NCBI GenBank assembly: GCA_003576905.1
Contig: QEVG01000006.1
Coordinates: 1 to 64,000, forward strand
Reading direction: 5' to 3'
Source: Planctomycetota bacterium
Lineage (GTDB): Bacteria > Planctomycetota > Phycisphaerae > UBA1845 > UTPLA1
DNA: 64,000 bases
Part shown: one piece after another, positions 14,808 to 25,412 of the stretch
How positions within the stretch are numbered: position 1 is the first letter of the stretch
How the letters are laid out: every line of letters begins with the position of its first letter
Notes under the pieces: generated by a model
What the model was told of the DNA's origin: nothing
Databases searched by the model: none
What the model saw: only the letters and a program-made list of their open reading frames with translations
Translations under genes and position numbers: made by a program

Positions 14808-16082
14808 TCAGTCAATAGCGCCCTCTCGAATGCCCAGAATGGTCGAGACGGTCTCCCGCTCAAAGCGCCGCATGTCGAAGAGCCGGCGGGCCCGCCGCTG
14901 CGCGGCCTCGCCCAGCCGGTCAATCGCACCGTCTTCGGAGAGAATCGCCGCCAGCGCATCGGCGAGCGATCTCGCACAGCCCGGCGGTACGACATACCCG
15001 CACTCGCCGTGCGCGACCGCCTCGGGAAGTCCCCCCACGTCGGTGACGATACACGGCTTTCCCCGGGCCATGGCCTCGATCACGCTGTTCGACATCGACT
15101 CTCGCCTCGAGGCCTGAACGTAGATATCAACACGGTCGTGCATGTCGTCCCGATCCGCACTGTATCCGGCGAACTCCACTCGGTGCCCAAGCCCGTCCGC
15201 GCCCGCCCGCCCGCGCAACTCGCCGGCGAGCGGACCATCGCCGAAATAGGCGAGCCGCGCACGCGGGAAGCGCCCCGCGATGAGCTTGAAGGCATCGTAG
15301 AGTACGTCGGCCCCTTTTGCCGGCGTCACGCGCCCGGAGGTGCCGATGCACACGGCCTCCCGCGCGGCGGTGCGACGAGGACACGACGCCGGCGGTTCGC
15401 CGTTGAAGATGATCCGGACCGATTCCTCGCGGAGGCCGTATTGCCGGATGTACGCGTCGGCGACGCGGCGGCTGTTGAGGATCACGGCGTCACAAAGGCG
15501 GGCAGGCCAGCGCTGGCGGCGCGTGACGCGGCGTCGCCAGAACCGAGGCATCGGCACGACGCGGAGCAGGCGCCGCGCGGGCAGGCTGGGCAGGCTCGGC
15601 GGCATCTGGCGGATGGAGGAAACGACGCGCAGGCCCAGCGTACGCGCCGCGAGCAACGAGGTCAGGAAAGCCGCGCCGTGGTCCTGTTGCACGACAAAAA
15701 GAGTGTCCGCCCCCGCGGCCCGAAGCCATCGCCGCCGCCGGCGCAGCAGCGCGACCGAGACGTCTCGATCGCCGGAGAGCGACTCATCGAGCCAACCCGT
15801 GTGTTCAACCGTCAGCCGGTGCGGTTCCGTCACATCCAGTAGTTCATCGTAGATCGATACGCCGGAGTACCCGACATGGACCGATGCTCCGGAGCGGAGC
15901 AGCGCGCGAATGGTCATCTGGATATACTTTTCCGCGCCGCCGGCGAAGACAAATCCATCGACGTTGAGATGATGCACGGCCAGGAGCGCAACACGGCGAC
16001 CGGCGGCAGGGAGCGCCAAAGTACCGGCGTCCTGCGCCGCACGAAATGTGGATTGCGGAGTTTGCAGGGACGTCACGGGCAT
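14808..16082 (-). CDS. GT4-family glycosyltransferase
   Basis: A 424-residue GT-B glycosyltransferase. The acceptor lobe begins 'VALLAVHHLNVDGFVFAGGAEKYI', where GGAEK is typical of GT4 enzymes. The donor lobe has 'IGTSGRVTPAKGADVLYDAF', 'LAYFGDGPLAGEL', 'VEFAGYSADRDDM' and the nucleotide-sugar motif 'ESMSNSVIEAMARGKPCIVTDVGGLPEAV'. It probably acts at the inner membrane on cell-surface glycan; the sugar is unknown. ATG 16082 has GGAG 10 bases upstream and is preferred to GTG 16115. It follows the 891-residue secreted protein gene by about 125 bases on the same strand. Confidence 0.88.
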   Translation of the reverse strand: MPVTSLQTPQSTFRAAQDAGTLALPAAGRRVALLAVHHLNVDGFVFAGGAEKYIQMTIRALLRSGASVHVGYSGVSIYDELLDVTEPHRLTVEHTGWLDESLSGDRDVSVALLRRRRRWLRAAGADTLFVVQQDHGAAFLTSLLAARTLGLRVVSSIRQMPPSLPSLPARRLLRVVPMPRFWRRRVTRRQRWPARLCDAVILNSRRVADAYIRQYGLREESVRIIFNGEPPASCPRRTAAREAVCIGTSGRVTPAKGADVLYDAFKLIAGRFPRARLAYFGDGPLAGELRGRAGADGLGHRVEFAGYSADRDDMHDRVDIYVQASRRESMSNSVIEAMARGKPCIVTDVGGLPEAVAHGECGYVVPPGCARSLADALAAILSEDGAIDRLGEAAQRRARRLFDMRRFERETVSTILGIREGAID

Positions 16083-16206
16083 GCGTTTAGCGCTCCGGTG
16101 GATAAGATTCTCCACCAGAAGTATCGGCCAATATCACCGCTCCTTCGGAAAGACGCGCCCGGATTGCGCGGATCGGTCGGTCAACGTGCCGCCGGGTGAC
16201 ACGCAC

Positions 16207-18882
16207 TTAGCCGGCCGGTTGCGGCGTATAGGCGGGGTACAGGCGGGGAGGATTGGGAATGTAAGTCTCGGCGATCGGTGCCAGGAGGTCTTCTTCGTCC
16301 AGGGGCCACGAGCCGTCTTTTCCGAGGAGACAGTCAATGGCGAAGAGCCGCCGGGCTGAGGAGCGGCTGGGCACGATCACGGATCCGAGAATTCGGTCTT
16401 CAACCGCGCGTCCCGCGAACTCGATCGTGGCCGAATCGGATTCCTCCAGGAGGTACAGGTACGGCAGAAGGGCCTCCGGCCGGACCAGAAGCAGGTCACG
16501 TTTCTTGCCGTCCTTACTGTACCGGACGGCAAGACATGCCTCACGGTCCCAGTCGAGCACATTGTTGAGTTCGATATCGCGATCAACGCCCTCTTTCCAA
16601 TCCGACAGGGCGCGATAGCGCGGCGAAGATGACAGCGCACCGGCACTCAAGGCCACGTGGCCCGCCGGCCCGGACCGTCCAGACAGCGTCAGATCCGCGA
16701 TGCCCGTCAGCTTTCGGAGGTCGGCCTCTCCGAGCCTGGGCAGTCGTTCCGCCCAGTCTCGACGCACGCGGTTCCATGAGTAACATTGCTCCGGCGTCGG
16801 CGGGGCGTATGGCGCTGCAGCGTCCTGACTCGGCGGCATGTTCAGATAGGCGAGACCGGGCACAGGCTCGTCGCGCCACGTGGCGAAACAGATGGAGAAC
16901 CCCCAGCCCTTGTCGGCGGGCGCGGCCAGGGCTTCGACGACCACGCGCACTTCATTCCAGCCGGACGCGAGGGGCGCATAGGATGCGATTGTGTCGGTCA
17001 GATTGCGATCCTCGTATTGGCCGCTCGAATAGTAGGTACCCGAATGAACGAGCCGGCCGTTGATCCACACCGCTGCGCCGTCGTTCTGGCCGATCCACAT
17101 GCGCACTTCCTGGTCGACGGGGCTGTATACCCAGCACTTCGCCTGCGCAAGCGCGGGTCCGGACGCGCCCAAGTACCGCTTCAGGTCGATGAAGTCCTCG
17201 TCGCTGACGAAGTGAATCGTCTGCCCGACGGTGGATGTCGGAATCGGGTCGAGGACATGATGCCTCTTTTCCTGCGGGTTCGCGATTGGAATAGGTCCCT
17301 GCAGCTGCCATAGCCGAGCGTACTCACGATTGCCGGGCCGCGGGGTCATGGCCACGCGCCGGTACATTTCAGGTGAAAAGTGATATCTCAGCGCCGAGCG
17401 GCAGCCGTACGCCGTGTGGGGAATGGGCTGGTATCCGCAGTCCTCCACCTCGTCCGCGGCGGGCAGGGCCTCACCGGCCTCGCCCACAATGGCCGCCCAC
17501 ATGAACTGCTGATAAAAGGCCGTGAGAAACTCCCGCCACGTCGCGTCGTGTTGCAGGACCGTGAGCGCGGCGCCGTTCGGCCCCTCATCGCCCCCGACTG
17601 TTCGGACGGTAATCGACATGTCTCCTTCGCGCCGCGGGCGTGTCACAATGACGGCGTCAAACCAGCCGCGCTCCGCAACGATGTCGCGCGATGGGCCGAT
17701 CAGCCCCCCCGGATACTCGATCATGGGCCAGCCGCTTTCGTCATCGAGTTCCAGGACAGATGCTTTCGGCGCGACGCGTCCGCGTGTCGCGGCCCAGACC
17801 ATGTAGCGCGACAGGATGAAGGCGACCTTCAGATCAAGCATGTTTTCCGAGGTCATCTTGCGCTCGCCGTCGCCCTTGATGACCACGAGAAGCGTCGACC
17901 AGATACGCGGGTTGGTCTCCCACGCCGCCACGCCGGACTGCTCCATGAAATCCATCACCTTGAAGACGTCGCCCTCGATGTGATCGAGCATTTCGCCGGC
18001 GCGGAATTGGGCGTCGGAGTGCATGGGATAGATGATCCGGCACTCGTTGAACTCCTTGTACGCCGGGGTAAAGATTGATGCCTGTTCCAGGAAGAGTCCC
18101 CAGCGGTAATGTTCGCGGAAATTACCGGAGAGCTTGTGCGGACGCTGGTCGTAGGAGAGCATCCGCAGGCCCCGCCGCGCGATCCGTGCCAGGCGTTCAT
18201 CCTTTGCGGCGATGAGCGAACGATAGACCCCGCGGGCCTGTTCCTTGCTGCCGGCCAGCTCATGCGCGAGGCCCACGAAATAGGACTTCAGTTCGTCCGT
18301 CGCCGCCGCCTGATGAAAAAGGGCGATCGGTCCGTTGAGGGAATCTCTCACGAGGAGCGGATCGGGCATACCGAAGGCGCGGATTTCCACTTCGTCGGCA
18401 ATGGAATCGAGTTCCAGCTTGATCGCCAGCCGGCCCTTGGAGTATTCCGGATTGCCGCGAATCGTCTCCAGGTTTACCACATAGGCCGTGCCGAATTTGA
18501 ACAGCTCCCAATCGGGCAGGGCCCTACCGCCGACCTCCACCTTGAACTTCCCTGGCACCTGCTCTCGATGTTCCTCGCCCTCTTGCGGGGCACTGCTCGG
18601 ATCCAGGACGGCCGGCGCCTGCATCACGTGCCACGGCCGCGCCGCCATCAGGACGACTGCCTGGCGAAGCGGGCCACCCGGCCCCGTGGGCAATCGAAAG
18701 GACTGCTGCGGTTCGGCCTTTTGAATGACCGCGGTGCCGAGAGGGACAACGGTGATGTCCTCGTGGCCCGCGGCAGTTGCCGTGTTTGTGCGCGCAAGCA
18801 GGCATGCTCCAGGGATCAGCGCGAAAACCGCCGCTTGCACCCCCCGCCGAATAACGATCTGTCCCCTGGGTCCGTTGGTCAT
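16207..18882 (-). CDS. large secreted protein of the Exb/TPR cluster
   Basis: An 891-residue protein I cannot assign to a named family. A signal peptide (AAVFALIPGACLLARTNTATAAG) is followed by a strand-rich opening. A helical middle resembles TPR-type solenoids ('YFVGLAHELAGSKEQARGVYRSLIAAKDERLARIARRGL'). A lectin-like jelly-roll follows around residues 580-680: 'WVYSPVDQEVRMWIGQNDGAAVWINGRLVHSGTYYS' is the pattern of planctomycete carbohydrate-binding-like domains. The C-terminal part is mixed. The ATG at 18882 has GGAAGG just upstream; the open frame beyond it is not protein-like. It is 97 bases after the membrane protein gene and probably closes the cluster that starts at 25333. Confidence 0.75.
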   Translation of the reverse strand: MTNGPRGQIVIRRGVQAAVFALIPGACLLARTNTATAAGHEDITVVPLGTAVIQKAEPQQSFRLPTGPGGPLRQAVVLMAARPWHVMQAPAVLDPSSAPQEGEEHREQVPGKFKVEVGGRALPDWELFKFGTAYVVNLETIRGNPEYSKGRLAIKLELDSIADEVEIRAFGMPDPLLVRDSLNGPIALFHQAAATDELKSYFVGLAHELAGSKEQARGVYRSLIAAKDERLARIARRGLRMLSYDQRPHKLSGNFREHYRWGLFLEQASIFTPAYKEFNECRIIYPMHSDAQFRAGEMLDHIEGDVFKVMDFMEQSGVAAWETNPRIWSTLLVVIKGDGERKMTSENMLDLKVAFILSRYMVWAATRGRVAPKASVLELDDESGWPMIEYPGGLIGPSRDIVAERGWFDAVIVTRPRREGDMSITVRTVGGDEGPNGAALTVLQHDATWREFLTAFYQQFMWAAIVGEAGEALPAADEVEDCGYQPIPHTAYGCRSALRYHFSPEMYRRVAMTPRPGNREYARLWQLQGPIPIANPQEKRHHVLDPIPTSTVGQTIHFVSDEDFIDLKRYLGASGPALAQAKCWVYSPVDQEVRMWIGQNDGAAVWINGRLVHSGTYYSSGQYEDRNLTDTIASYAPLASGWNEVRVVVEALAAPADKGWGFSICFATWRDEPVPGLAYLNMPPSQDAAAPYAPPTPEQCYSWNRVRRDWAERLPRLGEADLRKLTGIADLTLSGRSGPAGHVALSAGALSSSPRYRALSDWKEGVDRDIELNNVLDWDREACLAVRYSKDGKKRDLLLVRPEALLPYLYLLEESDSATIEFAGRAVEDRILGSVIVPSRSSARRLFAIDCLLGKDGSWPLDEEDLLAPIAETYIPNPPRLYPAYTPQPAG

Positions 18883-18979
18883 TTCCTTCCGCCAATTTCG
18901 TGCAGATTGCCCGATCGCCGTTGGAGGGCAATGGGCTGCGGTTCGCCTGGCTCGTCTGGCATTGTCCACGTAATCGGAG

Positions 18980-19762
18980 TCAGTCGCAACCCGACCCGCC
19001 CGCGTCGTCTTTTTCGTGCGGTCGATCCGCGCTCCTGTGGATCCAGTCGAAATCCGCCTCGGTGGGCGCTTCCTGTGCGCCCGGCCCGGCGGAAAAGCGC
19101 GTTCGCGGGCGTGAAAGGCCGCGCCGCAACAGGAACCAGATGAGTGCCATAACGACAACACCCGCAAAGATGTAGTTCCGACTTCGGCGATCGGGTCCGC
19201 CGGGATCGGGCACGGGGGCAGCCAGTGCTGCCCGGCCTACTTCCGCCCCCACGAAGAGCGGACCGGCCCCGGCCTCACCTTCAGAGGTCTGAAAGCTTCG
19301 CACCTTGATGAAATAGGCCTTTACGCGTACGCGCGAGCGCATGGGAAGCTCGCCCGGGTCGTCGGTCAGTACAACGGCCGCAAGCGCGCGCGATACGGCA
19401 TCCGCAAGTTCCAATTGATGCAGACGCCCGACGCCCTCGCGGTTCGGCACGTCATACGAATAACGCGATCGAAGCACGCCCTCAATCACAACGGCCTGCC
19501 CGCGATAATCTCCCGGCCGCTCCATCAGCAGCTTCCACGGGACCGCATCACTCTTCCCGTCGTCAACCAGCCCGGCCTTGCCCTCGGCGGTGCGGCAATA
19601 TTGGCAGAACCAGTAGAAACCGGGATCGTCGAATGAGAATACCTCGTCGCGGACATCCTCCAGCAGCCGACGGCCCTCGGAGATGCTCATCTCTTGCCCA
19701 GGTGACAGCGCGGCCCCAAGCAGCACCACTACACCGGTTACTACCAGACCCGATGGATTCAT
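18980..19762 (-). CDS. secreted or membrane-anchored protein of the Exb/TPR cluster
   Basis: A 260-residue protein without a family match. An N-terminal signal (SGLVVTGVVVLLGAALSPG) is followed by a globular region with a 'FYWFCQYC' pair of Cys and an OB-fold-like segment 'PGDYRGQAVVIEGVLRSRYSYDV'. A single transmembrane helix (NYIFAGVVVMALIWFLL) precedes a short charged C-terminal tail, so the bulk is expected outside the cytoplasmic membrane. The ATG overlaps the stop of the 906-residue protein as ATGA, implying coupling. Its conserved position suggests a part in the same machinery. Confidence 0.7.
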   Translation of the reverse strand: MNPSGLVVTGVVVLLGAALSPGQEMSISEGRRLLEDVRDEVFSFDDPGFYWFCQYCRTAEGKAGLVDDGKSDAVPWKLLMERPGDYRGQAVVIEGVLRSRYSYDVPNREGVGRLHQLELADAVSRALAAVVLTDDPGELPMRSRVRVKAYFIKVRSFQTSEGEAGAGPLFVGAEVGRAALAAPVPDPGGPDRRSRNYIFAGVVVMALIWFLLRRGLSRPRTRFSAGPGAQEAPTEADFDWIHRSADRPHEKDDAGGSGCD

Positions 19763-22479
19763 GGCGTGCCCTCGCCCGACCCGCCCGCCTTCCCGGCAAG
19801 CTCGAGCAGCCGGGCCTGCCAGGGCGGACCGCCGAGATCGGGATACCACACGCGCTCCGACGCGATGCCCTTTGAGACGAGTTCGGCCCTTCCGTGGCGA
19901 AGCTGATGGCGGAGCCAGTAGTAGCGAGCCTCCCAGTATTGGGAGCTCGAACGCTCGCGCAAGGATGGATCTTCCAGGAGACGCGCCCACAGCTTTTCCG
20001 CATGGTTTGCATCCGCGATTGAAGCCGCGGTGCCACCCTTTTCGAGCGCCATCTCCTCCATCAGTGCCGCCGCACGAATGTACGCCCCGTTGTACGGGTC
20101 CTTGCTCATCAACTGGTCATACACCTGCCGGGCTTCCTCGACCTGCCCCGAGACGCCGAGCGCCCGCGCCAGGGAGAATCGAACAACCTCCTGATCGCGA
20201 CGCCCGGTCGGTGAATCATCCAGGATCTGGAGCAGGCGACGGAGAACCGGTATGACGTCGACTGCGGCGCGGACGGCCTGCTCCGCACGACCCTGCGCCA
20301 CGAGTGTTTCGATCTGGCGATCCATCTCCGCGGCGAGGCTCAGCAGGGTCCGTTTTGATTCGCCGGTCGGCTTCCCATCGAGGAGCTTCTTCAGAACGGC
20401 CTCCGCCTCGTCGGCGCGGCCGGCACCCCGCAGGCAGCGCAGACGCAGGCCCAGAGCGCGCGGCGCATCATCCTTCGCAGGGAGAATGGCGAGTCCTTCG
20501 TCATACCGCCGCACCTCCGGAGATGCGTACAACTCAGCCGCGGATAGCCGGGCGGCACGTTCCCAGTCCTGAATGGCCTGATCGGCGGGCGCGGCGGGCT
20601 GTGACCTGCCCGCCGGGGCTCTCCCCGCGGACTCGGCAAGGTCCGTGACGAACTTTCGCCATGTGGCGGCAGCCGCATGTGCCCGGCGTTGGCGTTCCAC
20701 TTCGCCAAGTCTGCCTGCCTCCCCGTCGTACTTCGCCTGAACACACACAGCCGATCGGTACCGCGCTTCCCAGTATCTTGCGTCGCCGCGCCTTATCTTT
20801 TTCAACGCGTCCACCGCGTTGTCGTACTCTTCGGCTTCCTGAAGCGCGAGGGCGCCGACCCACACTGCCTCGGACGCCAGCGTGTTTTCGGGAAAGCGCG
20901 CGACCAAGGCGTCCGCCACCGCCGCGAGCGCAATGTAGCTCTCCTTTTTCTTCTGTTTCCCCGCCTGCTCCCGGAGGCAATGATAGGCATTGACGGCGGC
21001 GCGCTCGGCAAGATCGCCCTTTGCGTTCGTCTCCACCACTTCGGCGAAGGTCTGGGCCGCCGCCGCATGATCGCCCGTTTGGAACTGGCACACGCCGAGA
21101 TTGAACAGGGCTTCGCCCCGGCGTTTTGCCGCGCTCTTTCGGCGCAGGAACTCCGTCCACGCGGCAAGCGCCGGTTCGTGCCTTCCGGCCAGCATGAGCC
21201 GCGATGCGCGCATGAACAACTCGTCGTCATCCATCTTCGAAGGATCGCGCGAGTCGTCGTCCAGCAAGGCGAGATAGACCTGCGCCACGGCCGTCCAGAA
21301 TCCGCCGCGATCGGCGAGTTCCATGAGGCTTTGCGTCGCCCGGCGCGTTAATTCGTCCTTTTGTGCCGGAGGGCAATGCGAGGAGCGTGCCTCGAGGATA
21401 TCCGCATTGGCGATAAGCACCGGCGCGAGCCGGACGTAAAACGATGCTCCCGGCAGCTCCATTCCGTCAGGCGTCGACGCCAGCACCGCAAGTTCCTGCC
21501 GCGCTCGGTCGAATCGCTCGCGAAGGATGAACAGCCGGGCCAGTTCGTATCGGGCACGCGCCACCATCGCGGGCGGCATGGTCGATTCGATGACCCGTTT
21601 GAACGCGGCCTCGGATTCCGACGCACGCTCCAATTCCCGCAGGGCGATCCCCGCCCCGAGCGTCGCGTTGTACTTTCCTTCGTCGTCCGGTGCGGTTCGC
21701 TGCACGAGATCGAAGATGCCGAGGGCCGAATCCAGCCGGACCTTCCGGCCCATCGTCCCCGGATCACTCAGCATTCCGAGAAAGAGCGTCGTCCATGCGC
21801 TGCTCACCAGCTGCTCGCGCGAGAGCTTCTCCACCCGCGAAGACAAACCGAGCAATAGGAACTTTTCCTCCTGCGTCCGCAGATCGATGAGCATTTCGTC
21901 GAGCCGCTCCCGCGCCGTCCGGTGGAGCGCTTCGGCCTCTTTCAGCCGCGCGATCAGGCGAGCCCTTTCATAGTGCAGCCCGCTGGTGATCTCGTATTGA
22001 TCCAGGTCCGGGCCACATGCAACCGAGAGGACGAAATCGGCGTACTCGGCGCGCCACTCGGCGATGGCAAACGCCCGGCGAAGACCGTGGTGCCATTCGG
22101 CGTTGTTCTCGAGGTTGATCGCGAATTGATAGCACTTCTCTGCCCGTTCGACGAAGGTCTGACGACGGGCCGGTTCCTGTTCGTCGCGCGCCGCGCGCGA
22201 ATAGGCCCGCGCGACATGTATCTGGTGCATGGTCGGCGCGTCGGAGAAGAGTGCCTCCACCAACTCGGGCATTCCGCGTTCGGTAAGTTCCGCCGCCAGT
22301 GTCCGCTGCCGCGCGGACGGCCGATCATCCGGCTCCGACTTGGAGTTGACCCCCTGCTGAGCCGGAGACGACGCCGCCGGCAGCAACGCGACGATCGCAA
22401 CGATGGCGACCGGGTGGATGCGCCGGAATACGGCAGGCCGCCGGAGGACGGATAGCGAATAGAGCGGTATGCCGATCAT
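19759..22479 (-). CDS. tetratricopeptide-type solenoid protein
   Basis: A 906-residue protein with an N-terminal signal or anchor (VAIVAIVALLPAASSPAQQ), then almost all helical repeats. TPR-like units can be read, for example 'FNLGVCQFQTGDHAAAAQTFAEVV', 'AVWVGALALQEAEEYDNAVDALKKI' and 'EALFNL', with Ala/Leu spacing typical of TPR. Periplasmic scaffolding is inferred. Its ATG overlaps the stop of the second ExbD gene (ATGA), and its stop overlaps the next start (ATGA), so translation of three genes is linked. In transport clusters of this kind such repeat proteins play the part of TolA/TonB-associated scaffolds, but no TonB C-terminal domain is visible. Confidence 0.75.
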   Translation of the reverse strand: MIGIPLYSLSVLRRPAVFRRIHPVAIVAIVALLPAASSPAQQGVNSKSEPDDRPSARQRTLAAELTERGMPELVEALFSDAPTMHQIHVARAYSRAARDEQEPARRQTFVERAEKCYQFAINLENNAEWHHGLRRAFAIAEWRAEYADFVLSVACGPDLDQYEITSGLHYERARLIARLKEAEALHRTARERLDEMLIDLRTQEEKFLLLGLSSRVEKLSREQLVSSAWTTLFLGMLSDPGTMGRKVRLDSALGIFDLVQRTAPDDEGKYNATLGAGIALRELERASESEAAFKRVIESTMPPAMVARARYELARLFILRERFDRARQELAVLASTPDGMELPGASFYVRLAPVLIANADILEARSSHCPPAQKDELTRRATQSLMELADRGGFWTAVAQVYLALLDDDSRDPSKMDDDELFMRASRLMLAGRHEPALAAWTEFLRRKSAAKRRGEALFNLGVCQFQTGDHAAAAQTFAEVVETNAKGDLAERAAVNAYHCLREQAGKQKKKESYIALAAVADALVARFPENTLASEAVWVGALALQEAEEYDNAVDALKKIRRGDARYWEARYRSAVCVQAKYDGEAGRLGEVERQRRAHAAAATWRKFVTDLAESAGRAPAGRSQPAAPADQAIQDWERAARLSAAELYASPEVRRYDEGLAILPAKDDAPRALGLRLRCLRGAGRADEAEAVLKKLLDGKPTGESKRTLLSLAAEMDRQIETLVAQGRAEQAVRAAVDVIPVLRRLLQILDDSPTGRRDQEVVRFSLARALGVSGQVEEARQVYDQLMSKDPYNGAYIRAAALMEEMALEKGGTAASIADANHAEKLWARLLEDPSLRERSSSQYWEARYYWLRHQLRHGRAELVSKGIASERVWYPDLGGPPWQARLLELAGKAGGSGEGTP

Positions 22480-22946
22480 GGTGCGGAACTCACGCCGACG
22501 GCCGAAGCACCGACACCGAGTTGGATATTCGGCATGCCCGCCTCCAGACAGGCATCCATTGCCGCGACAACATCTCGGTATTCCACGCCGGGGTCGGCGG
22601 ACAGCAGGATCCGCCCGGAAGGGTCGGCGCCGGCCTCGCGCTTTTCGCGCAGAAGTGCCGCCAGGGCCTCGAAGGAATTTACAGAAAGGGCCTGACCGAG
22701 CACCAGAATGCGGGAGCCCGTTTCGCCCGGTTCCTGCACAAGGGCGATTCGAATCTGTGGGATAATGGAAACGGCGGATTCGCCGCCCGGTCCAAGTTGC
22801 GTGGGAAGCTGGGTCGAAAAGACTCCTTCGGACGCGGCAAAGCTCGTCCCGAGCATGAAGAAGATAAGAATCACCATGGTCACGTCCACCATGGGGGCCA
22901 GATTGGGAATGGCCGCGCGATGATGCGACTGCCGCCGGTTGAGCAT
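22476..22946 (-). CDS. exbD: ExbD/TolR-family protein (second copy)
   Basis: A 156-residue inner-membrane protein with one transmembrane helix and a periplasmic domain. The start 'PNLAPMVDVTMVILIFFML' holds the conserved Asp of the proton path. The C-terminal domain has 'RILLSADPGVEYRDVVAAMDACLEAGMPNIQLG', the family's closing fold. ExbD works with ExbB/TolQ to convert proton flow to force. It begins directly after the stop of the first ExbD copy (TAGATG) and overlaps the next gene by ATGA. The two copies differ, so a hetero-oligomer is possible. Confidence 0.92.
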   Translation of the reverse strand: MLNRRQSHHRAAIPNLAPMVDVTMVILIFFMLGTSFAASEGVFSTQLPTQLGPGGESAVSIIPQIRIALVQEPGETGSRILVLGQALSVNSFEALAALLREKREAGADPSGRILLSADPGVEYRDVVAAMDACLEAGMPNIQLGVGASAVGVSSAP

Positions 22947-23393
22947 CTAATCGCCTCCCTCCTCGTCGGTGGAAGCGCTGAACCATACGGTCTGCACCTG
23001 AAGTCGCGCACATCCTGCCAGCACCGCCTCGACGTGGCGATAGGCGACGGAGCGATCGGCCCGAATCACGCAGGTGACGTCGGCGTTGACAATCCGCTCG
23101 ATCTCCAGCCGCGCGAGGACGTCTTCAATAGCGAGCAACTCCTCGCGAATCACGTATTCGGCCGCTCCCTCCTGCGCCGCGCTCCTGCGAATGTTGACCA
23201 CGAAACGGTTCTCGCGCGGCTTGCCGCCGATGTCATCCGCCCTGCGGGCCGCCGGCAGGTCGATCCGGCTCGTCTCCTGTTCCACCATCCGCGTCGCCAG
23301 CATGAAGAAAATGAGCAGGCACATCATGACGTCCACCATGGGCGCCAGGTTCAGTTCAATCGCGGTGGTGGCGGGCGGTCTGCGCATGGCCAT
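22947..23393 (-). CDS. exbD: ExbD/TolR-family protein (first copy)
   Basis: A 148-residue ExbD/TolR homologue. 'IELNLAPMVDVMMCLLIFFMLATRM' gives the transmembrane helix with the functional Asp. The periplasmic part has 'VTCVIRADRSVAYRHVEAVLAGCARLQVQTVWFSA'. It is separated by 17 bases from the ExbB/TolQ gene upstream and abuts the second ExbD copy. Two ExbD genes behind one ExbB gene are common in planctomycete energy-transducing clusters. Confidence 0.93.
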   Translation of the reverse strand: MAMRRPPATTAIELNLAPMVDVMMCLLIFFMLATRMVEQETSRIDLPAARRADDIGGKPRENRFVVNIRRSAAQEGAAEYVIREELLAIEDVLARLEIERIVNADVTCVIRADRSVAYRHVEAVLAGCARLQVQTVWFSASTDEEGGD

Positions 23394-23410
23394 TCACGGT
23401 GTGACGCAAA

Positions 23411-24238
23411 TCAGGACTGTGATGAACTCGGCGCGGGCTCCGCCGGGCGGGCCGGCGCGCCGCCGACGCGCCGCGACCCGGATGCCGCAGCGCCGCCGCC
23501 GACGGTGATCGGCCTGAAGTACTCCAGCAGATCCATCGCGGCGGCATGCGCCGCGACCGTCATGGCGTCCACGCGGTTTCGGCAGATGCCGAAGAAGCCC
23601 ATCGACACGATCGCAACCGCAAGTCCCAGGAACGTGTTGACCAGCGCCAGGCTGATGCCGCCTGCAAGGTTTTCAGGCTTGTATCCGCCCGGCGAGGCCT
23701 GCATCTGTCCGAACGCCTCAATCATGCCGAGGACGGTGCCGAGGAGTCCCATCAGCGGCCCGAGGTTGCCGATGATGTTCAAATACTCGGCCTTCCGGAA
23801 CAGCCGGCTCGCCCAGGCGTTGGCCCGCTCGCTCGCCGCCTCGTGCATCGCGTCGAATCCGTGCCGCCCGTGGCGCAGACCGGCCGTAAGCACGTCGGCG
23901 AACATCGTCTTGCTGTCCTTGATCGACTCGATGCATTCCTTGTACCGGCGGCCCTCAATCAGTTGTCGCGTCTGTTCGATTTCCGCCTCGGGCACCATCG
24001 TCGAGCGGCGAATCGTCCAGAAATGTTCAATGATGATGGTCACGGCGGCAAGGGACATCGCGACGATAATGACACCCGGCCACTCCGCGCCGTCGAGCAG
24101 GATTTGCAGGAACGATGTCCCCGACCGTGCCGCGCCCTCGGCTCCCGCGGCTCCGGTCGCCGCCAAAAGGAACACCGCCATGCCGATGACGGACGGACTC
24201 CCATGCACCCGGCGGATTCTTCGGCTCATGTGATTCAT
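23411..24238 (-). CDS. exbB: ExbB/TolQ/MotA proton channel protein
   Basis: A 275-residue membrane protein of the MotA/TolQ/ExbB channel family. A signal-like first hydrophobic segment is followed by the usual three transmembrane helices: 'GVIIVAMSLAAVTIIIEHFW', then the conserved block 'LNIIGNLGPLMGLLGTVLGMIEAFGQM', then 'GGISLALVNTFLGLAVAIVSMGFFG'. The TolQ signature G-P-L-x-G-L-L-G-T-V is intact. The C-terminus is an Ala/Pro/Ser-rich tail. ATG 24238 is preferred; ATG 24229 or an upstream TTG are alternatives. It follows the vWA gene by 51 bases. Confidence 0.92.
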   Translation of the reverse strand: MNHMSRRIRRVHGSPSVIGMAVFLLAATGAAGAEGAARSGTSFLQILLDGAEWPGVIIVAMSLAAVTIIIEHFWTIRRSTMVPEAEIEQTRQLIEGRRYKECIESIKDSKTMFADVLTAGLRHGRHGFDAMHEAASERANAWASRLFRKAEYLNIIGNLGPLMGLLGTVLGMIEAFGQMQASPGGYKPENLAGGISLALVNTFLGLAVAIVSMGFFGICRNRVDAMTVAAHAAAMDLLEYFRPITVGGGAAASGSRRVGGAPARPAEPAPSSSQS

Positions 24239-24289
24239 CAATCGCAAAGTCAACTCCGATGATGTCCGCGGTCCGCCCCCGACGTTCGA

Positions 24290-25333
24290 TTATTGCCGCA
24301 GGTCCTCCTGCCGAACATGCTTGTAAATCCCCCGGTTTTCCTCTGCGATGGTCCGCAGCACTTTCTCGCCGTCGCCCGCCGTGTCATACACGAACAGGAT
24401 CGTGTTGATCGTGGTCGCCTTGTCACGGTTCTTCTGCCGGATGACCCGCATGATTTTCTGATTGAACTCGCCAAAGTCTCCGTCGGAAAGCAGGAACAAT
24501 ACGTCCGGCCGCGAGTCGAGCGCCGTCTGAATCGCGTCCAGCGGCTCGGTCTGCCCGCTTGGGACGATTGTCTCCAGCGAAACGAACACCTGCCGCTTGT
24601 TTTCCAACGTCGCCGTCACAAGCTGCGGAAACAGCGGCGTGCACTTGCCCTCGTTGAAAAAAATCACGTTGAACAGCTGGTCCGATTCCAGCGAACCAAT
24701 CGCCTGTTTGAGCTCCCGCTGGAGAAGGCCGAACGTGTCACTCATCGAACCGCTGCGATCGAGGACGTACACGATCGATCGCGCCTTCTGACCCTCGCCG
24801 ACCCCCCAGAGGCTTCCGACCGGGCCGCCGCCCGCGAGTTCGCGATCGCCCAGGCCGGAACCGAGTCCGCCCTTCCCGCGAAGACCGGCTCCCGTGCCCA
24901 CGACATCTTCGCGCCGCAGACCCTGCGCGGTGAACTCGGCCAGTGACGTCCCGCCGGCAATGGCCGGCAGCGTTTCCGACTCATTTTCCGGACGCTTCAG
25001 CAGGTCGCTCAGCGAAGTCGCCCCTTCCGGGTTTCCGGCCGATCGCGACGAATCGGGCCGGTCGATCATGGCATGGCCCGCGAATCGGAATCCGCCGCCC
25101 GGAACCTTTGGAAGCTCCGCCGCGACGATCTGCGCCCGAACTTCCCGAGGAGCATTGGCCGCCGCCGCCCCGACCGCCCACGTGACGAGTCCGAACAGCG
25201 TTGCGACTCCCACATGCAGGCACAGACTGATACCCGCCGAACCAACCAGCCGGCCCCACACGCCCCCGCGCCGGCGCGCGCGCCGCGCGGGAACGGAAGG
25301 AGCTTGCGCGGCAGCATGGTCCGAAGGTGACAT
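24290..25333 (-). CDS. membrane-anchored von Willebrand factor A protein
   Basis: About 347 residues. A basic cytoplasmic N-terminus and one transmembrane helix (LVGSAGISLCLHVGVATLFGLVTWAVGA) precede a Gly-rich linker ('GLRGKGGLGSGLGDRELAGGG'). A vWA domain follows, with an intact metal site: 'IVYVLDRSGSMSD' (DxSxS), a Thr in 'SGQTEPL' and 'LFLLSDGDFGE'. Such domains bind protein partners through Mg2+. The layout, one N-terminal helix and a linker into a periplasmic domain, resembles TonB/TolA-like arms. It is the first gene after the promoter at 25385-25412. GTG 25363 is a possible alternative start. Confidence 0.85.
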   Translation of the reverse strand: MSPSDHAAAQAPSVPARRARRRGGVWGRLVGSAGISLCLHVGVATLFGLVTWAVGAAAANAPREVRAQIVAAELPKVPGGGFRFAGHAMIDRPDSSRSAGNPEGATSLSDLLKRPENESETLPAIAGGTSLAEFTAQGLRREDVVGTGAGLRGKGGLGSGLGDRELAGGGPVGSLWGVGEGQKARSIVYVLDRSGSMSDTFGLLQRELKQAIGSLESDQLFNVIFFNEGKCTPLFPQLVTATLENKRQVFVSLETIVPSGQTEPLDAIQTALDSRPDVLFLLSDGDFGEFNQKIMRVIRQKNRDKATTINTILFVYDTAGDGEKVLRTIAEENRGIYKHVRQEDLRQ

Positions 25334-25384
25334 TGGGTCTGGAACCGCCAAGGCAGGTCTCACGGGGGCGATTTACTCATCATG

Positions 25385-25412
25385 ATTCTATCGGCCTGGC
25401 TCGGGCGATCAA
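25385..25412 (-). promoter_or_regulatory. sigma-70-type promoter of the vWA-Exb cluster
   Basis: Read leftward: TTGATC (25412-25407), a 16-base spacer and TAGAAT (25390-25385). The start would lie near 25378, between the folD stop and the vWA gene. This supports the cluster as a separate transcription unit from folD. Confidence 0.5.

Follow-up and report, generated by a model that had tools for sequence, protein, structure and literature searches.

A vWA-ExbB-ExbD-ExbD-TPR gene cluster of Phycisphaerae as a probable force-transducing motor, and its looser neighbours

Introduction

What may a bacterium do with a gene cluster that joins subunits of an ExbB/ExbD-type motor to a protein ending in a vWA domain? 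The question is raised by a Planctomycetota bacterium (GTDB lineage Phycisphaerae; UBA1845; UTPLA1), in which such a cluster lies within the first 64,000 nucleotides of contig QEVG01000006.1 (assembly GCA_003576905.1); this whole stretch is referred to as the window. The five core genes, encoding a vWA protein, ExbB, two ExbD and a TPR protein, are a real unit that is recognisable across the order, and their products probably form a 5:2-type motor of the Ton/Tol superfamily that sits in the inner membrane, is driven by protons and bears a vWA tip. The core and its neighbours are listed below with the evidence used (ORF, open reading frame).

24290-25363 (GTG) or from the start ATG 25333, (-): vWA force-transducer candidate; ORF list, Pfam, alignment, motif counts
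23411-24253 (TTG) or from the start ATG 24238, (-): ExbB/TolQ-type motor subunit; Pfam, alignment, solved TolQ (8odt)
22947-23393, (-): ExbD/TolR-type subunit 1; Pfam, alignment, own lineage
22476-22946, (-): ExbD/TolR-type subunit 2; Pfam, alignment, own lineage
19759-22479, (-): 906-residue TPR protein, conserved core; Pfam, relatives, hydropathy
18980-19762, (-): 260-residue membrane protein of predicted OB-fold type; model, alignment, hydropathy, gene neighbourhoods
16207-18882, (-): 891-residue protein, associated, not core; model, relatives, tree, hydropathy
14808-16115, (-): glycosyltransferase (Glycos_transf_1 / Glyco_transf_4), conserved partner of the 891-residue gene; Pfam, gene neighbourhoods

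The first seven of these leftward genes had been described in an initial annotation of the window, and their order, spacing and domain calls are confirmed by the ORF coordinates, which give gaps of 51, 17, 0, -4, -4 and 97 bp from the vWA gene to the 891-residue gene, and by Pfam (VWA_3 8.8e-11; MotA_ExbB 2.7e-25; ExbD 3e-19 and 6e-19; TPR_19 8e-14). The 260- and 891-residue proteins of the window gave no Pfam match above cut-off.

As a kind, this core has been published. In 2025, Williams-Jones et al. described as a "force transducer" a vWA protein whose helix is of TonB/TolA type, encoded near tolQ-like, two unlike tolR-like and TPR genes in the Planctomycetes-Verrucomicrobia-Chlamydiae (PVC) group, with Planctomycetes named (PMC12204202). 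According to the available portion of that report, the class also occurs in Proteobacteria, Verrucomicrobia, Bacteroidetes and Rhodothermaota, and is marked by an SHLS motif with a motor-binding His, a disordered linker with a predicted motor box and a helix predicted to dock on the motor edge; the vWA genes are often located after the TPR and motor genes, and a gliding role is suggested with no phenotype reported in that portion (PMC12204202). The core is therefore not novel, nor is it phylum-specific, which had initially been envisaged as possible, and the window provides a further member of a class that is functionally open.

The vWA protein and its motor

The vWA protein of the window comprises a cytoplasmic N-terminal stretch, one transmembrane (TM) helix with the sequence SLCLH, a Gly-rich linker (~73-193, with 25 Gly in 121 residues) and a C-terminal VWA_3 domain at 197-348. 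Its metal ion-dependent adhesion site (MIDAS) is complete (D202, S204, S206, T272, D294), and these residues are invariant across 18 aligned vWA proteins. The helix carries S46, H50, F57 and T61 and is free of Asp. The helix of E. coli TonB bears Ser16, His20, Leu27 and Ser31, with the same spacing of Ser, His, +7 and +11 positions. The TonB-like layout proposed for this protein on first inspection is thus borne out, down to the Ser and His positions of the TonB/TolA helix.

Among the 18 aligned proteins, the His and the Ser at -4 are present in 18/18, Thr or Ser occupies +11 in 16 (T14/S2/F1/P1) and the +7 position varies more widely (L13/F3/I1/M1). For the motif counts, vWA genes were read up to the previous stop, since the gene caller cuts starts in some loci of the phylum; in 35 of the 40 called vWA genes, SxxxH falls within the most hydrophobic stretch. 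The five misses are L039, L054 and L160, which are cut by or start at a contig end (L054 shows the helix motif in the alignment although it is missed in the called genes), the second gene of L135, and L133, where no SxxxH was found within the hydrophobic stretch inspected. The TPH-vWA class, which according to the available text lacks tolR/exbD beside tolQ and has a vWA helix with a pore Asp (PMC12204202), is ruled out for the window by the two ExbD and by a helix with SxxxH and no Asp.

ExbB and both ExbD keep their motor residues. In ExbB, the TM threonines T173 and T207 are invariant (19 aligned rows) and correspond in alignment to threonines of solved TolQ (8odt), while the TM Asp21 is kept in 22/22 rows of ExbD subunit 1 and 21/21 rows of subunit 2. 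For loci with exactly two called ExbD, a quick tree separates first and second ExbD into two groups of 36 rows each, with one change (support 99; shuffled mean 24.4), and the pair is therefore old and has been kept apart. To judge from these sequences, such an ancient, separately maintained pair is what would be expected of an unlike axle pair. With both ExbD and ExbB retaining the motor residues and the gene order conserved (see below), the initial proposal of an energy-transducing envelope machine gains support.

By the features tested, i. e., helix motif, linker plus vWA domain, tolQ/two-tolR synteny and TPR, the locus belongs at the sequence level to the vWA force-transducer class, with which it shares one TM Ser/His helix, a flexible linker, a C-terminal vWA domain and the company of one tolQ-like, two tolR-like and TPR genes (PMC12204202). 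It differs in the addition of a predicted OB-fold membrane protein and of a putative pseudo-peptidase/glycosyltransferase pair, neither of which appears in the available part of the class description (PMC12204202).

With the Ton system (TonB-ExbB-ExbD), the cluster has in common the motor subunits and the TonB-type helix motif, whereas the window has a vWA domain for the TonB C-terminal domain, two ExbD and no receptor plug in the genome: the Plug domain of TonB-dependent receptors gave 0 matches genome-wide, and the control matched in 3/14. Uptake of the TonB-receptor kind, one of the roles first suggested, is accordingly rejected for this genome, other kinds of uptake lying outside this test.

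In NCBIfam, the ExbB scores best against TolQ and both ExbD against TolR, all far below the curated cut-offs. Together with the match of ExbB to solved TolQ and a TPR protein in the operon that matches the YbgF model below cut-off, this might suggest a lineage-specific replacement of Tol-Pal (TolQ-TolR-TolA-TolB-Pal), in which the motor would hold outer membrane and wall together and the vWA tip would stand in place of the TolA C-terminal domain. However, the cluster encodes no TolA C-terminal domain, TolB or Pal (TolB was not searched genome-wide), the genome encodes proteins with an OmpA domain elsewhere, on other contigs (3 matches), and a relative from the same family, G002, lives without the core, all of which makes a Tol-Pal replacement unlikely.

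Another precedent is offered by the make-up of one TolQ-like and two TolR-like subunits, which recurs in AglR-AglQ-AglS of Myxococcus, accompanied by the TonB-like transducer GltG and the TPR-type GltC (PMC3169522, available portion). Conceivably, a gliding motor similar to Agl/Glt would act on envelope proteins by which surface adhesins are moved, with the jelly roll of the 891-residue protein or another secreted protein as traction element, and gliding has been proposed for the vWA class itself (PMC12204202, available portion). The likeness to Agl-Glt extends to the motor make-up, no search aimed at Glt homologs having been made, and the vWA adhesin CglB of Myxococcus is a surface protein (title of a reference cited in PMC12204202) and not a tethered transducer. 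Moreover, the 891-residue protein also occurs apart from the motor, and no literature was found that joins Phycisphaer-, gliding and ExbB; we consider this reading improbable.

Conservation of the core

At a threshold of 1e-5, 31 of 61 genomes (own genome included) gave a match to the TPR protein, and the stretches around the matches in 28 of the 30 other positive genomes were searched with tblastn and a small gene caller. In the family of the window, vWA-ExbB-ExbD-ExbD-TPR is contiguous in 15 of 17 genomes, the exceptions being G002 and G004 (in G011 the vWA gene is cut by a contig end), which is more than chance would give. Within family f4, ExbB-ExbD-ExbD-TPR stand together in 8 of 13 sampled genomes; among these eight, vWA was not detected in G038, and vWA and TPR of G041 are cut by contig ends. 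Of the remaining f4 genomes, G044 has only a distant paralog and G053 gave no match. The other families of the order are represented by ten loci taken for an ExbB or TPR match (L058-L060, L152-L158); ExbB-ExbD-ExbD-TPR is present in 10/10 and vWA in 9/10, and in all nine with vWA an extra gene of 251-392 residues lies between vWA and ExbB. The products of two such genes were scanned, and match TPR below the cut-offs in L058 and just above one in L133. The same gene order is found at class level in L132-L135, which were selected by TPR match. At 1e-25, the TPR profile was matched in at least 5 of 294 genomes of the phylum (own included), an undercount since only 3 candidates were scored per genome. 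The vWA profile was matched in 112 of 294 genomes at 1e-20 (own included), which is no count of systems because the matches listed largely cover the vWA domain only.

In six f4 loci (L043, L045, L048-L051) the gene ahead of vWA is of DUF1844 type, and in five of them lgt- and panC-type genes stand in front of that gene; these upstream genes were grouped, and one member per group was scanned for domains. Two vWA-type genes stand in tandem before the motor genes in L132, L135 and L205; L132 has a third ExbD call, and its first vWA-type gene gave no Pfam match.

Proposed mechanism and points against it

Beyond the observed genes, motifs, conservation and lineages, we infer complex formation, proton use, force and a partner by analogy with Ton/Tol biology and the published models. 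ExbB would form a pentamer around an axle made of the unlike ExbD pair, and the vWA protein would bind the side of this motor via its Ser/His helix. Proton flow through ExbB:ExbD may then turn or strain the vWA protein through the helix, and the flexible linker would carry the force to the periplasmic vWA tip, which could grip or pull a periplasmic or outer-membrane partner via its MIDAS metal site. The TPR protein would likely bridge as an adaptor, and the neighbouring putative pseudo-metallopeptidase and glycosyltransferase may be clients or mere neighbours. As to the overall role, tethering of the outer envelope or movement of a surface protein would be a guess.

Several observations weigh against this reading. 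On the side of the vWA protein, the +7 residue of the window helix is Phe, Ala replaces Ser in both vWA genes of L205 and in one of L135, and the window vWA is the first gene of the cluster, whereas the published vWA genes are often downstream (PMC12204202, available portion). Of the 20 phylum loci fetched from vWA matches, 10 have ExbB and ExbD beside vWA, which is not a frequency because the loci were chosen by score with some spread. SxxxH is present in 17 of their 21 vWA genes, that is, in 9 of the 10 loci where Exb genes adjoin vWA and in 8 of the 10 where none do; furthermore, most of the phylum-scale vWA matches listed span the vWA domain alone. On the side of the cluster, the TPR gene lies apart from the vWA-Exb genes in 3 of the 13 f4 genomes (G019, G029, G056), and in G004 the vWA, ExbB, TPR, 260- and 891-residue genes are spread over five contigs, with no ExbD in the five stretches searched. 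Finally, TPR, vWA, the 260-residue gene and ExbB were not found in G002, a genome that is 96% complete. There, the folD-DUF1570 block, which borders the cluster in the window, lies unbroken inside a contig and an opposite-strand gene occupies the cluster site, so that the absence is due to loss and not to a contig end. The machine is hence not indispensable, as G002 without the core, the scattered G004 and the three f4 genomes indicate.

The loss in G002 beside close relatives that keep the cluster also makes the locus valuable. With an order-wide core, two ExbD lineages kept apart and family-specific additions, it represents a deep comparative set in which function becomes testable by setting gene content against phenotype.

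The vWA proteins of eight loci (L195-L199, L203, L206, L213) carry SxxxH in a TM helix with ExbB and ExbD not found nearby, and may use a motor encoded elsewhere.

The TPR protein and the 260-residue protein

The 906-residue TPR protein has one N-terminal hydrophobic stretch and, judging from its sequence, is probably exported. The gene that follows it encodes the 260-residue protein, initially annotated simply as a membrane protein. This description is corrected here to a hydrophobic N-terminal stretch, a predicted OB-fold domain, one C-terminal helix (TM ~198-216) and a tail with a DFxW motif invariant in 10 rows. An AlphaFold2 model from 4 sequences places the OB fold at ~66-182 with moderate confidence (mean predicted local distance difference test, pLDDT, 67.7; blocks of 70-93 over 61-180). 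Foldseek returned 6 matches below 1e-3, mostly single-strand DNA-binding proteins, and the top row of VIA-align is the Klebsiella OB-fold lipoprotein 3f1z (Z 9.1, root-mean-square deviation (rmsd) 2.7, 105 residues). A predicted OB fold in common tells nothing of the ligand of the 260-residue protein.

The gene was matched in 14 of 17 family genomes, and in 11 of the 17 it immediately follows the TPR gene. Variants comprise a copy with helix and tail only (G009), one located elsewhere (G004) and one on another contig, near its end (G012); no copy was found in G002, in G011 or in G005, which is 75% complete and whose contig ends in the TPR gene. Taken jointly with the motor mechanism set out above, we hold it to be probable that the predicted OB-fold membrane protein is an addition to the core in the family of the window.

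The 891-residue protein and the glycosyltransferase

The 891-residue gene is associated with the cluster in a different manner. Its product starts with a beta-rich part, signal-like by eye with no segment over a Kyte-Doolittle hydropathy of 1.6, followed by helical repeats, a metzincin-like part (322-516), a GH2/CBM/PA14-like jelly roll (516-670) and a C-terminal part, and on this sequence is probably exported or secreted. These folds are predictions of moderate confidence, taken from an AlphaFold2 model (7 sequences; pLDDT 65.4, predicted template modelling score 0.46). From residue 322, this model aligns in VIA-align with metzincin/zincin metallopeptidases such as ADAMTS and snake venom metalloproteinases (Z 9.4-10.1, rmsd 3.7-4.6, 166-179 residues, for a model of pLDDT 65), and 516-670 aligns with GH2/CBM-type jelly rolls (Z up to 10.6). 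These values are to be read with caution, since Z 7-8 is common as best score without kinship, and the best Foldseek E-value is 1.9e-3. A profile search against solved structures gave nothing significant, and Pfam gave no match for the family or its relatives.

An independent line of evidence backs the putative zincin-like fold, namely that distant relatives carry HExxH at the aligned place. HEWNH or HEWLH is found there in L129, L130, L075, the Armatimonadota locus L067 and one family copy, G004 (L123), with a TH or LH pair ~20 residues further on in the HExxH-bearing relatives. In the other 15 of the 16 family copies, including the window, HExxH is absent, as is the TH/LH pair in the rows shown, while G013 keeps the partial site RQWNH. 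The 891-residue protein thus differs from the metzincins in having neither HExxH nor a Pfam match, and looks like a pseudo-metallopeptidase that has lost its zinc ligands, within the limits of the predicted folds. The classic metzincin zinc motif is HExxHxxGxxH, with a third zinc His. Because this longer motif was not seen even in the relatives with intact HExxH, "zincin-like" is the safer name.

Sequences for both structure models came from one scan that gave 8 loci, namely six of Planctomycetota/Phycisphaerae type with long matches (L061-L066), one from Armatimonadota and one Phycisphaerae fragment; L061-L066 correspond to G012, G009, G002, G016, G008 and very likely G015 and are not extra genomes. 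In the phylum, the protein was matched in at least 34 of 293 other genomes at 1e-8 (3 candidates scored per genome), mostly in the jelly-roll part ~500-690.

Within the family, the gene is present in 16 of 17 genomes (not found in G005), and lies after the motor cluster in 11 of these 16 and elsewhere in G002, G004, G011, G012 and G013. Its conserved companion is the glycosyltransferase gene, left out of the original seven-gene listing, which follows the 891-residue gene in 14 of 16 family genomes (in G004 and G010 a single gene intervenes); the two exceptions are G008, where it is missing at this place, and G007, whose contig breaks off inside the 891-residue gene. All five copies apart from the motor have a glycosyltransferase near. 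As the motor is lost in G002, where the 891-residue gene persists, and the pair lives without it, we do not count the pair as part of the machine, contrary to what had been supposed for the 891-residue protein. Gene order, for which a comparison among relatives had been suggested, is accordingly conserved for the core, mostly so for the 260-residue gene and mixed for the 891-residue gene.

A tree of 18 rows sheds light on how the two came together. A clade of 13 copies (100/100) unites all 11 linked copies with those of G002 and G012, while the copies of G013, G011 and G004, none of them linked, lie outside it together with two outgroups, G004 standing beside these at 84/87. Likely, catalysis was lost first and the neighbourhood gained afterwards; this order is no more than likely because of the support for the placement of G004 (84/87) and because the long branches of the outgroups meet. 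The family is a probable example of a protein that acquired new gene neighbours after its catalytic activity had gone.

Since 11 of the 13 copies in this clade lie after the motor cluster, one may ask whether the whole eight-gene stretch is one machine, with the pseudo-peptidase as its force-receiving or glycan-binding end. The 5 of 16 copies found elsewhere, each with a glycosyltransferase near, and the one that persists without the motor speak against it, and we regard this as rather unlikely. A more detailed version, in which a secreted metallopeptidase would have lost its zinc site, then come to lie, a single time, next to the proton motor as a client that binds glycan or envelope without catalysis, and now, together with the OB-fold protein, would belong to a force-driven envelope machine with the dead protease as working end, appears equally doubtful. 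The preferred reading is that of a five-gene motor core with a family-specific OB-fold addition.

In the parts of the literature that were searched, we did not meet an OB-fold protein accompanying the motor, an 891-residue protein that is separable and of pseudo-enzyme type, or the order-wide ExbD pair of two lineages; the 260- and 891-residue families are nameless, so that their absence from print is not established by this.

Other features of the window and genome

A promoter had been placed at 25385-25412, upstream of the vWA gene. A promoter-type match is indeed present (TTGATC-16-TAGAAT, at 25412-25385), but is expected by chance (1 site against a shuffle mean of 1.5) and hence provides no evidence. 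Terminators numbered 9 against a shuffle mean of 8.5. A defence-system reading was dropped, as PADLOC gave no match among the 7 cluster proteins at E 0.1.

The genome also contains a paralogous locus on contig C41 (L056:1955-13224) with an M56 (BlaR1-type) peptidase, a 1050-aa TPR protein, ExbB, one ExbD and a PD40 beta-propeller protein. It was rejected as a second copy of the system because its arrangement differs and it gave no vWA match. The order in L159 appears similar to that of the C41 locus. Lastly, at C26:42129-43274 of the same genome, MotA-type and OmpA/MotB-type matches are adjacent and probably represent a flagellar stator pair.

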